Positions 27,464 to 32,001 of a stretch of DNA of 64,000 nt are shown here, in pieces. The DNA is from Chloroflexota bacterium (GTDB taxonomy: Bacteria; Chloroflexota; Anaerolineae; Anaerolineales; Villigracilaceae). The notes beneath the pieces are model-generated. The model saw only the letters and a list, made by a program, of their open reading frames with translations, did no database searches and had not been told where the DNA came from. Every line of letters starts with the position of its first letter. Within the stretch, counting starts at the first letter, position 1. Both the position numbers and the translations under genes were made by a program. The stretch lies in assembly GCA_021787595.1 (NCBI GenBank), contig JAJYLQ010000008.1, forward strand, positions 1 to 64,000, written 5' to 3'.

Positions 27464-28303
27464 TTACATATGGCTCACCCATTCCTTTACAAGAGCAGGA
27501 AGTCTTTCAACGACCTCATGGCCAAATAAGACCTCATCAATCAAACCCATATGCAATAAGTCAACAATTCGGCAAAGATACGATTTTCCTTGAGTCCACC
27601 AAGTATCATGTGCATCAATAATCAGATAGTGTTGAATCTTGATACCTTCATGTTCCTTCAATTCTTCAAGTTCCAGTCCATCTAAAAGTGTTTCGTAAAT
27701 TCCATCTGCAACACGACTTCCAAAAGTGGTTGTGTAATAGTATTCCTTAATTTCCCAAATCGCTATGGGATTCACACTGCTTGGGAATACCCCGTCCACA
27801 CGGCGAGCTAAAGTGCGAACAGGTAAATTATTTTTGGTAATGGTTGTCAATTGATGAGGGCCATAATCGCATGGCCAACCTTTTGAATTTGCTTCAATTA
27901 ACATGTTTACCAATCCTGTTAAGTAAGCAGGCGCTTTCTTCTTGCCTTTCTGCTTATTCACAGGAATTGGGCATGATGGCTTAAGTCTGGAAAGATGATC
28001 GCGAAAAACCTGCTTCGCTTTTCTTCCATCCATCAATCGCGGCTCAACATAATTATTCAAGATGTCGGCGCGGTAAACAAAATATTCTTCTAAAAGCAAG
28101 CCCATTTTCTGAGAGCTCACTACTTGAATTCGCAATTGGTCGTAATCAATTTCAAGTTCACCAAGTTTGAGTTTTATTTCATCCACTGATGGAATTTTTA
28201 TTTGATTTGTCCCTTTTGCTGTATAACCGACCTCTTGACTAATCAGGCGAACACTTGCCCAAAATGTCTTTGGCAGATTCAAGAATTTATCATTTGCTTT
28301 CAC
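27464..28303 (-). CDS. Putative type II restriction endonuclease (PD-(D/E)xK)
   Basis: A 279-residue protein with the nuclease-like core RRVDGVFPSSVNPIAIWEIK: an Asp, a spacer of about 13 residues, then E-I-K, fitting the PD-(D/E)xK fold. The downstream helix GSRVADGIYETLLDGLELEE is typical of such restriction enzymes, and YLIIDAHDTWW forms a later beta strand. No named family is assigned. The call rests on context: it overlaps a small XRE regulator by 14 bases and is divergent from a D12 adenine methyltransferase. The region is AT-richer than its surroundings, suggesting transfer. The recognition site is unknown. Confidence 0.7.
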   Translation of the reverse strand: MKANDKFLNLPKTFWASVRLISQEVGYTAKGTNQIKIPSVDEIKLKLGELEIDYDQLRIQVVSSQKMGLLLEEYFVYRADILNNYVEPRLMDGRKAKQVFRDHLSRLKPSCPIPVNKQKGKKKAPAYLTGLVNMLIEANSKGWPCDYGPHQLTTITKNNLPVRTLARRVDGVFPSSVNPIAIWEIKEYYYTTTFGSRVADGIYETLLDGLELEELKEHEGIKIQHYLIIDAHDTWWTQGKSYLCRIVDLLHMGLIDEVLFGHEVVERLPALVKEWVSHM

Positions 28304-28544
28304 CTAAGCTATCCTCCAGTTCTCTTATGAATTCTTGCAAAGGAATACCAATCGCTTGGCAAACTTGGCGCAATTCCAAAATATCAAGTTGGCGATCTCC
28401 AGATTCATATTTGCTGATGAAGGATTGAGGAACGCCCAACTTTTCAGCCAACTCAATTTGCCGAATTCCTTTATCTTGGCGAATCCTTTTCAGCAATTCT
28501 TGGAATTTTTCGCGTTGTACGTTTTTGTTCTTTTTTTTCATCAC
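28290..28544 (-). CDS. XRE-family controller (C) protein of the restriction system
   Basis: An 84-residue helix-turn-helix protein, the size of restriction-modification C proteins. The HTH is QIELAEKLGVPQSFISKYE followed by RQLDILELRQVCQAIGI. The start has AGGTG upstream. C proteins bind operator boxes upstream of their own gene, activating C and the endonuclease after a delay that lets the methylase act first. The arrangement here (C and R overlapping, M divergent) is classic, and a 7-bp inverted repeat lies in the 60-base gap. Confidence 0.88.
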   Translation of the reverse strand: MMKKKNKNVQREKFQELLKRIRQDKGIRQIELAEKLGVPQSFISKYESGDRQLDILELRQVCQAIGIPLQEFIRELEDSLGESK

Positions 28545-28558
28545 CTATTCCATTGACA

Positions 28559-28579
28559 AATATCCCAAAACAGGATATT
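28559..28579. promoter_or_regulatory. Candidate C-box operator
   Basis: AATATCC-CAAAACA-GGATATT: 7-bp arms around 7 bases, in the short gap between the divergent C gene and methyltransferase. It overlaps the methylase promoter zone, where a C protein would act. Confidence 0.6.
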
Positions 28580-28590
28580 ATTTTGCTTGG

Positions 28591-28596
28591 TATAAT
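28591..28596 (+). promoter_or_regulatory. -10 box of the methyltransferase gene
   Basis: TATAAT, eight bases before the ATG at 28605. No Shine-Dalgarno fits between, so the mRNA is probably leaderless. Confidence 0.55.
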
Positions 28597-28604
28597 GACA
28601 CATT

Positions 28605-29510
28605 ATGAAAGTCCTACAAGATACGGCACAACTTTATTTGTTTCAAACTCAATCAAACAAAACGCGTCTGGTTGAACCCTTCAACGCTTCACTTCTAAAA
28701 TGGATTGGGAGCAAACAACGCGTTGCACATGAAATTATTTCCTACTTTCCTGTCGAATTCGGTACATACTTTGAACCTTTCCTGGGCAGCGGTGGCATCC
28801 TTGGAACACTTCGACCCAAAGTTGCGGCTGCATCAGATTCTTTTGCACCGTTGATCGAAATTTGGCAAACACTAAAGCATTCTCCCCAAAAACTAAAAGA
28901 TTGGTACCGGGAGCGGTGGGAGAAAATGAAAAATGGCGATAAGGTTAAAGTTTACGAGCAAATAAAAGCATCCTATAACAAAAAACCGAATGGCGCAGAT
29001 TTGCTTTTTCTAACACGTTCCTGTTATGGCGGAGTTGTTCGATTTCGTAAAGCTGACGGCTATATGTCTACACCTTGCGGAATCCATGCTCCTATCTCGC
29101 CAGAAAGTTTCAATCGACGCGTTGACGAATGGCATAAACGAATTGTGGGAACAACTTTCTTTCAACTTGAATTCGAAGAAGCCATGAGTATGGCAAAACC
29201 TGGCGATTTAGTCTATTGTGACCCACCTTACAGTTACAGTCAAGCCATTTTATATGGCGCGCAAGCGTTCAGTTTAGAACACCTTCTATATGTAATCGAA
29301 AAATGTAAATCCAGGGGAGTATATGTTGCATTGAGTATTGACGGAACAAAACGTTCAGGGAATATGATCTGTGATTTGCCAATTCCTGACGGCCTCTTTG
29401 AGCATGAAATAATGATTGATATTGGTCACTCGATGCTCAAACGTTTTCAAATGAATGGAAAGACACTCGAAGGCGAAAGGGTAACAGATCGGCTTTTGCT
29501 TACTTATTAG
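28605..29510 (+). CDS. D12-class N6-adenine DNA methyltransferase
   Basis: A 301-residue Dam-like enzyme that methylates adenine N6 using SAM. Motif order is that of the alpha (D12) class: FNASLLKWIGSKQRVAHEII (motif X), YFEPFLGSGGILGTL (motif I, SAM binding), a central target-recognition region, then VYCDPPYSYSQAI (motif IV, catalytic DPPY). It should protect the host from the adjacent endonuclease. The recognition sequence cannot be told from the sequence; GATC is only one option for D12 enzymes. Base composition matches the neighbouring regulator and endonuclease but not the genome around, supporting joint acquisition. Confidence 0.93.
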   Translation: MKVLQDTAQLYLFQTQSNKTRLVEPFNASLLKWIGSKQRVAHEIISYFPVEFGTYFEPFLGSGGILGTLRPKVAAASDSFAPLIEIWQTLKHSPQKLKDWYRERWEKMKNGDKVKVYEQIKASYNKKPNGADLLFLTRSCYGGVVRFRKADGYMSTPCGIHAPISPESFNRRVDEWHKRIVGTTFFQLEFEEAMSMAKPGDLVYCDPPYSYSQAILYGAQAFSLEHLLYVIEKCKSRGVYVALSIDGTKRSGNMICDLPIPDGLFEHEIMIDIGHSMLKRFQMNGKTLEGERVTDRLLLTY

Positions 29511-29530: not shown

Positions 29531-29718
29531 CAAAACAGGCGATTACTGAAAGGTAGTCGCCTGTTTGCGTTTTGCGCTGGTCGAGTGGCGGCGGGATTTC
29601 GTATGTTCTGGTCTCGATACGAGCGAGAAAAGCACTCGCTCTACTCGACCAGCGACTCTCTACCGCCGCCTTATCGAGACCACATTTTATTCTTTCACTT
29701 CACCATCAATCACATTGC
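29531..29718. repeat. Duplicated dnaK tail and downstream repeat, copy A
   Basis: Direct, diverged copy of 29974-30132. It includes a hairpin (AACAGGCGA with TCGCCTGTT), the TGGTCGAGTGGCGGCGGGAT block, and TTATTCTTTCACTTCACCAT, which on the minus strand reads as the last ten DnaK codons, NVIDGEVKE-stop. The hairpin may terminate the methyltransferase transcript. Confidence 0.8.
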
Positions 29719-29731
29719 CTGGCACAAGTGT

Positions 29732-29950
29732 TCATGCTTCAATCAAAGCCTTCTCCACTTCAGCGGGTAAATGCAAAAGCATAAAGTGGCTGATGTGATA
29801 AAGGTAATCTTCGCCGCTTTCATCCATCACGCGAATCAAGTCATCCTCCTCCGCGCGCGGATCTGGAATGACTTCATAAACCTTTCTCGTGATTAAGGAT
29901 GCTTCGTAGTCTGTGTTGTCAATGCAAAGGGCAAATTGTCTTTCACTCAT
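29732..29950 (-). CDS. Small conserved protein of unknown function (72 aa)
   Basis: A 72-residue protein, MSERQFALCIDNTDYEASLI, then RKVYEVIPDPRAEEDDLIRV and SGEDYLYHISHFMLL. It resembles a widely scattered family of 65-75-residue proteins with the pattern CI-N-DYE-SL-RK-YEV-PD and DESGEDYLY, which is why I accept it as real. No enzymatic motif. It lies between two copies of the dnaK tail region, on the same strand as dnaK. Function unknown. Confidence 0.75.
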   Translation of the reverse strand: MSERQFALCIDNTDYEASLITRKVYEVIPDPRAEEDDLIRVMDESGEDYLYHISHFMLLHLPAEVEKALIEA

Positions 29951-29973: not shown

Positions 29974-30132
29974 CAAAACAGGCAACCGCTTTTCAATGGT
30001 CGCCTGTTGCGTTTTGCGTTGGTCGAGTGGCGGCGGGATTTCGATACGCCGCTTCGCGGCTACTCAATCACCGCCGCCGTATCGAGACCACGTTTTGCTT
30101 TATTCTTTCACTTCACCATCAATCACATCGCC
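29974..30132. repeat. dnaK tail and downstream repeat, copy B
   Basis: Contains the hairpin AACAGGC...GCCTGTT (a likely terminator for dnaK), the TGGTCGAGTGGCGGCGGGAT block and its partner CGCCGCCGTATCGAGACCA, and the true dnaK stop region. Copy A at 29531 repeats this order. Confidence 0.8.
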
Positions 30133-32001
30133 GTCACTTGGCGGAGTGGACGGTCCGCCCCCTTGCGCCTGTCCCTGTCCCTGTCCCTGCGGCTGACCCT
30201 GGGCATAAAGCTGCTGGCTCAACGCGTGGAAGGCATTCTGAGCGTCGTCCGTGGCTTTCTTGATGCGGTTCAAGTCATCGCTTTGCGCGGCCTGCTTGAG
30301 GTCGTTGATCTTGGCTTCGATGTTCGAGCGATCATCGGATTTGACCTTATCGCCCAGCTCGCGCAGAGTCTTCTCGAGTTGATACGCCATGTTATCTGCG
30401 TTGTTCTTCGCTTCGATCAACTCACGGTGCTTCTTGTCTTCGGCTTCGTGCTGACGGCCTTCCTGCACCATGCGATCAATATCGTTCTTGTTCAAGTTCG
30501 TCGAAGCCGTGATGGTCACCTTCTGTTCCTTGCCGGTGGCTTTATCTTTGGCGGTCACATGCAGAATGCCGTTGGCATCAATATCGAACGTCACCTCAAC
30601 TTGCGGGATGCCGCGCGGCGCAGGCGGAATTCCATCCAATCGGAATCGCCCCAGCGACATATTATCGCCAGCCATCGGTCGTTCGCCCTGCAGGACGTGG
30701 ATGTCCACCGCGGTTTGATTATCCGCGGCGGTGGAATATGCCTCGGTCTTGCGGATCGGAATCGTCGTGTTGCGTTCGATCATCTTGGTCATCACGCCGC
30801 CCAACGTCTCGACGCCGAGCGAAAGCGGAGTCACATCCAGCAGCAAAATGTCCTTGACTTCGCCGCCGAGCACGCCGCCCTGGATGGCCGCGCCGACCGC
30901 GACCACTTCATCGGGATTGACTCCCTTGTTCGGCTCTTTGCCGCTCGTCAGCTTGCGAACCAGATCCTGCGCCATCGGCATGCGCGTCGAACCACCGACC
31001 AAAACCACCTCGTCCAGATCAGACGGCTTCATGTTGGCATCCGCCAGCGCGGCCTCAAAAGGTTTGCGGCAGCGATTGAGCAAATCTTCGGTCATCTGCT
31101 CGAACTTGGCGCGGCTCAACTTCAATTGCATGTGCTTCGGCCCGGATGCGTCCGCGGTGATGTATGGCAGATTGATCTCGGTTTCCATCACGGACGATAA
31201 TTCGATCTTGGCCTTTTCCGCGGCCTCGCGCAGACGCTGTAATGCCTGGCGATCATTGCGCAGGTCAATGCCCTGCTCGCGCTTGAATTCATCCGCGGCC
31301 CAGTTGACAATGCGTTGATCCCAGTCATCGCCGCCGAGATGTGTGTCGCCGTTCGTGGCTTTGACTTCGATCACGCCTTCGCCCACTTCCAGCACCGACA
31401 CATCGAACGTGCCGCCGCCCAGGTCGAAGACGAGAATCTTTTCGTTCTTCTTTTTATCGAGTCCGTAAGCGAGCGCGGACGCCGTCGGTTCATTGATGAT
31501 ACGCATCACTTCGAGACCCGCGATCTTGCCTGCATCTTTCGTAGCCTGACGCTGGCTGTCGTTAAAGTACGCGGGAACTGTGATGACGGCTTGCGTGACG
31601 GGTCCGCCGAGATACGCTTCGGCATCCGCTTTGAGTTTCGCCAGGATCATGGCGCTGATTTCCTGCGGGCTGTATTCGCGGCCCGTGACCGGGATTTTCA
31701 CCTTTACATCGTCCGCCGTTCCCTGGACCACTTCAAACGGAACCATCTTGCGTTCCACTTCGGTCTCTTCATAATGACGGCCCATGAAACGCTTGATGGA
31801 ATAGATCGTGTTCTCTGAATTTACAACAGCCTGCCGCTTCGCAGTCTGGCCGACGAGGCGTTCGCCATTTTTATTGAACGCCACGACGGACGGGCATAAA
31901 CGCCCGCCTTCCGCAGTCGAGATGACAGTCGGCGTGCCGCCTTCCATGACGGCTACAACGCTGTTGGTCGTCCCCAGGTCAATGCCAATGATTTTTCCCA
32001 T
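30100..32001 (-). CDS. dnaK: Molecular chaperone DnaK (Hsp70)
   Basis: Hsp70 chaperone, ATP-driven holder and refolder of unfolded proteins with DnaJ and GrpE. 633 residues, normal. Seen: [17 protein letters not shown] (phosphate 1), [35 protein letters not shown] (phosphate 2), [13 protein letters not shown] (adenosine site), the linker [13 protein letters not shown], then the substrate-binding domain and lid. The C-terminus is a Gly/Gln-rich tail ([16 protein letters not shown]) ending in IDGEVKE. No grpE or dnaJ lies next to it. The start has GAGTGTGAG upstream. The 3' end is duplicated at 29687-29718. Confidence 0.98.

Follow-up and report, generated by a model that had tools for sequence, protein, structure and literature searches.

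The window analysed here is a 64,000-nucleotide stretch of a Chloroflexota genome (contig JAJYLQ010000008.1), in which a cassette of three genes sits between yhhN and dnaK. The gene for a DNA methyltransferase (M) is divergent from those for a controller protein (C) and an endonuclease (R), and the end of C runs 14 bp into the start of R. The original prediction had placed the three genes correctly, with all frames open, and its naming of an XRE regulator and a D12 methylase agrees with the domain matches in Table 1. It had also described the block as richer in AT than its flanks, which is confirmed by a GC content of 0.39–0.42 for the module against 0.48 for yhhN, 0.57 for dnaK and 0.53 for the window as a whole. 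An Rfam search gave no match.

Table 1. Features of the cassette between yhhN and dnaK (positions in the window unless given as residues of R).
Feature	Position	Strand	Description or basis
R	27464–28303	-	GTG start, 279 aa, open frame; predicted type II restriction endonuclease, BclI family
R, DUF7690	residues 1–84		Pfam
R, DUF7687	residues 91–275		Pfam
R, putative PD-(D/E)xK residues	D170, E184, K186		invariance in 22 homologues
C	28290–28544	-	controller protein, XRE/HTH_3, 84 aa, open frame; HTH_3 E 1.6e-15
C operator AATATCC-N7-GGATATT	28559–28579		predicted; 21-bp inverted repeat conserved at 17 homologous loci
Candidate M promoter TTGACA-17-TATTAT	28553–28581	+	11/12 consensus positions
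Second candidate M -10, TATAAT	28591–28596	+	TG one base upstream; read from sequence
M	28605–29510	+	D12-class N6-adenine DNA methyltransferase, 301 aa, open frame; MethyltransfD12 E 1.1e-23

R is matched nearly end to end by the PADLOC model REase_II PDLC03423 (E 1e-63, 213 bits, R residues 1–273 against model positions 1–277 of 285). A tblastn search of plasmids with R returned four records: pBcl1 (42% identity across 98% of the length of R), pBM69 of Bacillus methanolicus MGA3 (42%), pGA2 of Corynebacterium glutamicum (36%) and a Marinobacter plasmid that matches over 45% of R. No match was found in the phage records searched. Plasmid pBcl1 comes from Bacillus caldolyticus NEB414 and has M divergent from C and R as in the window; PDLC03423 (285 residues) matches its R from one end to the other (681 bits). 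Its C protein is identical at 77 of 77 residues to the crystallised C.BclI (PDB 2b5a), and pBcl1 therefore carries the BclI locus. By this homology R is a full-length relative of the BclI-system endonuclease, which rules out a new endonuclease family. The original prediction had held that the protein belongs to no family that can be named; the family was missed because in Pfam neither domain of R has an assigned function. Both DUF7690 and DUF7687 can now be given one, each making up one part of a BclI-type endonuclease.

Conservation between R and its pBcl1 counterpart is uneven. Residues 167–211, which carry the D-x13-ExK residues, are 82% identical, whereas the N-terminal residues 1–148 are just 32% identical. 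M is matched by the PADLOC model MTase_II PDLC03290 (E 5e-69) and is 48% identical overall to the pBcl1 methylase, rising to 69% in residues 132–176, the putative target-recognition block. BclI recognises TGATCA (PMC3459991). Because the catalytic block of R, the recognition block of M and the gene order all correspond to those of BclI, the site of the window system is likely TGATCA as well, although overall identities of 42% (R) and 48% (M) give no guarantee of the same site. The original prediction had suggested that the site may be new, and here the homology of both R and M points the other way: most likely no new cutting site is to be expected from R, its specificity being already known from BclI, and a false lead is thus removed. 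We consider it highly probable (about 0.85) that the cassette is a complete type II restriction-modification (R-M) system of the BclI family, in which M would methylate the adenine of TGATCA, R would cut TGATCA and C would time expression. The sequences themselves show the gene content and order, the homology, the conservation of the operator, its overlap with the promoters and the empty sites in congeners; that the system is active, exactly which site it reads, where R cuts and in which direction C exerts control are what we infer.

Three other readings were weighed against this one. The proteins of the cassette, though of the BclI family, might have drifted to a related site, either GATC alone or GATC flanked by an outer base that is changed or degenerate. 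The low overall identities would allow this, as would the insertions and deletions in the N-terminal half of R, and M narrowly passes the cut-off of the Dam-family model TIGR00571 (115.4 vs 114.85 bits). Drift is nevertheless unlikely, since the conserved blocks of R and M are 69–82% identical to those of BclI and the two proteins would have to shift together; the Dam-like M of the distant Marinobacter locus, by comparison, is just 20% identical in the 132–176 block. We attach a similarly low probability to a decayed or silent system, with intact genes and no restriction in the cell. TGATCA occurs 1689 times in the 4.08-Mb genome, about as densely as in congeners that lack the system, and no avoidance was seen against these non-carriers. 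Long-lasting restriction pressure is thus not visible; this lack of avoidance speaks for a silent system, as does the recent, AT-rich insertion. Against it stand three open frames, an intact operator, and intact methylase motifs in M and putative catalytic motif in R. Avoidance was dropped as evidence for activity, which the density of TGATCA neither proves nor disproves.

It is very improbable, finally, that the 279-aa protein is something other than a nuclease. Such a reading could draw on two Pfam domains of unknown function and on the lack of a PDB relative by sequence, with either phmmer or profile searches. It conflicts with the homology to the BclI-system endonuclease and with the D-x13-ExK residues, which are unchanged in an alignment of 22 homologues and which bear out the PD-(D/E)xK assignment of the original prediction, their catalytic role being putative. 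The fold of R had been put forward as a check, and in the PDB search with the AlphaFold model (mean pLDDT 83, pTM 0.84) three restriction enzymes, BstEII, BsoBI and PspGI, came out on top; these matches are weak, with low TM-scores, and no PDB match reached an E-value below 0.001. A fold like that of BamHI, BglII or BstYI, expected from the common GATC core, did not appear in the list of the 50 highest-ranking matches.

We favour the BclI-family R-M system, and within it the controller is the part that sets the cassette apart. C has the features typical of controller proteins: it is a small protein with an HTH domain, its gene precedes that of R, and the inverted repeat at its promoter is conserved. 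Its top match in the PDB is C.BclI (2b5a, E 1.3e-13). The 7-bp inverted operator claimed for the gap between C and M is indeed present. The repeat taken alone is weak evidence, because when the letters of the 60-bp gap are shuffled, 5.6% of the resulting sequences have at least one 7-bp inverted repeat whose loop is 10 or shorter; we judge the operator real because it recurs at homologous loci. ATATCC-N7-GGATAT, exact or with one mismatch, is found in the M–C gap at 17 homologous loci from Chloroflexota, Nitrospirota, Planctomycetota, Verrucomicrobiota and two unclassified bacteria. The genome itself holds one exact copy of the operator in 4.08 Mb. Five other Chloroflexota genomes have an exact copy and none of them a DUF7687 gene; we estimate that five is about the number expected by chance. 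The operator was also tried as a probe for other systems on viral contigs, and none of the 80 loci retrieved encodes a relative of C, M or R. A literature search for an ATATCC operator found none, the main large-scale survey of C proteins lying outside that search.

The operator appears to follow the recognition helix of C. All 17 loci with ATATCC-N7-GGATAT have the helix PQS(F/V)(V/I)SK. At three further loci (L006, L024 and L025) S or T replaces the P, and the box is ATATTCC-N5-GGAATAT, with one extra mismatch in L024 and L025; at a fourth (L009) the helix reads SRYETG and the box GTATGCA-N5-TGCATAC. The C proteins of pBcl1 and pBM69 carry the helix HRTYISEVERG, with other repeats at their gaps. 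Were the loci independent, which they are not entirely, the four deviant helices would coincide with the four deviant boxes among 21 loci with a probability of 1 in 5985. These pairings suggest that the operator sequence varies along with the recognition helix across homologues. We would put at even odds a broader proposal, that the controller was exchanged or re-specified inside one R-M family, such that BclI-type systems outside Bacillus use the PQSF helix with ATATCC-N7-GGATAT and single changes from P to S or T pair with a matching base change to ATATTCC-N5-GGAATAT. If this is true, nature would have supplied a code for the specificity of C proteins. The pairs of helix and operator in the homologues form a small, testable set on how such controllers come to recognise a new sequence.

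The operator occupies the spacer of the candidate M promoter TTGACA-17-TATTAT, and TTGAC adjoining the box recurs in several homologues. From the second candidate -10 element, the M transcript would be nearly leaderless. On entry into a naive cell, M would be made first, from the TTGACA/TATTAT promoter, and would methylate the adenine of TGATCA. Accumulating C would then bind the operator, where it could block the M promoter and also act on the C–R promoter, whose -35 region the operator overlaps, and R would therefore appear late and cut unmethylated TGATCA, probably as T^GATCA like BclI. A single operator between divergent promoters would in this way be the control point of C.

The gap between yhhN and dnaK is 2.7 kb in the window and about 0.2 kb in the congeners G004 and G003, where the site is empty; G003 does carry the system, but on a different contig, adjoining recG. 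A third congener, G001, has at this position the toxin-antitoxin pair HigBA together with an R-M system of the ThaI type (L060 1273–2735), in which an N6/N4 methylase accompanies a ThaI-type endonuclease (Pfam PF15514, E 5.6e-82). Different R-M systems therefore occupy one site. A stretch of 34–37 bp from the 3' end of dnaK occurs twice next to the cassette in the window (29686–29719 and 30099–30142) and next to HigBA in G001 (L060 201–237 and 1069–1105), as if the gap were a hotspot at which insertions have arrived repeatedly. Between the two copies in the window lies a 72-aa reading frame (29732–29950, minus strand) with no Pfam or NCBIfam match.

A DUF7687 gene was found in only 7 of 301 Chloroflexota genomes. 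R is 64% identical to a Nitrospirota protein, against 50–60% to DUF7687 proteins from other Chloroflexota families; the inner forks of the tree are mostly unresolved. This rarity, the closer Nitrospirota relative and the differences in site among congeners fit horizontal transfer, and a horizontal insertion of the cassette between yhhN and dnaK is well supported. What stands of the original prediction is thus a C-controlled R-M island, to which horizontal acquisition can be added, and what falls away is the unassigned endonuclease with a new site.

Some related loci differ in their make-up. On viral contigs, four BclI-type R-M loci (L081–L084) were seen with no C gene found near R and M; three of these (L081–L083) have no room for one, because the M–R gap of ~0.1–0.2 kb is too short. 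Beside the BclI-type system of G010, a 150-aa frame (L062 4420–4872, minus strand) resembles, by eye, part of a BsuBI/PstI-type endonuclease. The Marinobacter plasmid (L019 1119–3908) encodes a distant DUF7687 protein, two methylases, one of them Dam-like, and an HTH gene, and is possibly a variant with another site.

Compared with the BclI system on pBcl1 (L016), the cassette has the same three genes in identical divergent order, with R homologous over its whole length (42% identical) and identities of 48% for M and 38% for C. The two differ in location, the window system being chromosomal in a Chloroflexi genome and the BclI system on a plasmid, in the C helix (PQSFISKYESG vs HRTYISEVERG) and in the gap repeat (ATATCC-N7-GGATAT vs AAGTCT/AGACTT-like repeats). 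A BclI-like helix and operator, which mark a subtype and are not required of an R-M system, are thus absent from the cassette. The pBM69 locus (L017) also shares the genes and their order (R 42%, M 48%), whereas in both C helix and operator it follows BclI; we take this locus to be that of BmeTI, a TGATCA isoschizomer. Two related systems have the same operator as the window, namely that of the congener G003 (L002, R 78% identical) and that of the family member G010 (L003, R 73% identical), which sits between other genes. From its sequence the cassette appears to be an ordinary BclI-family system with a different controller specificity, and the operator switch relative to BclI is its only fresh point. 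Controllers of the C.AhdI type likewise are small HTH proteins that bind an inverted repeat ahead of their own operon, as is predicted for the window, but the published core of their C-box is AGTC/GACT (PMC5282649), in place of which the window has ATATCC/GGATAT.
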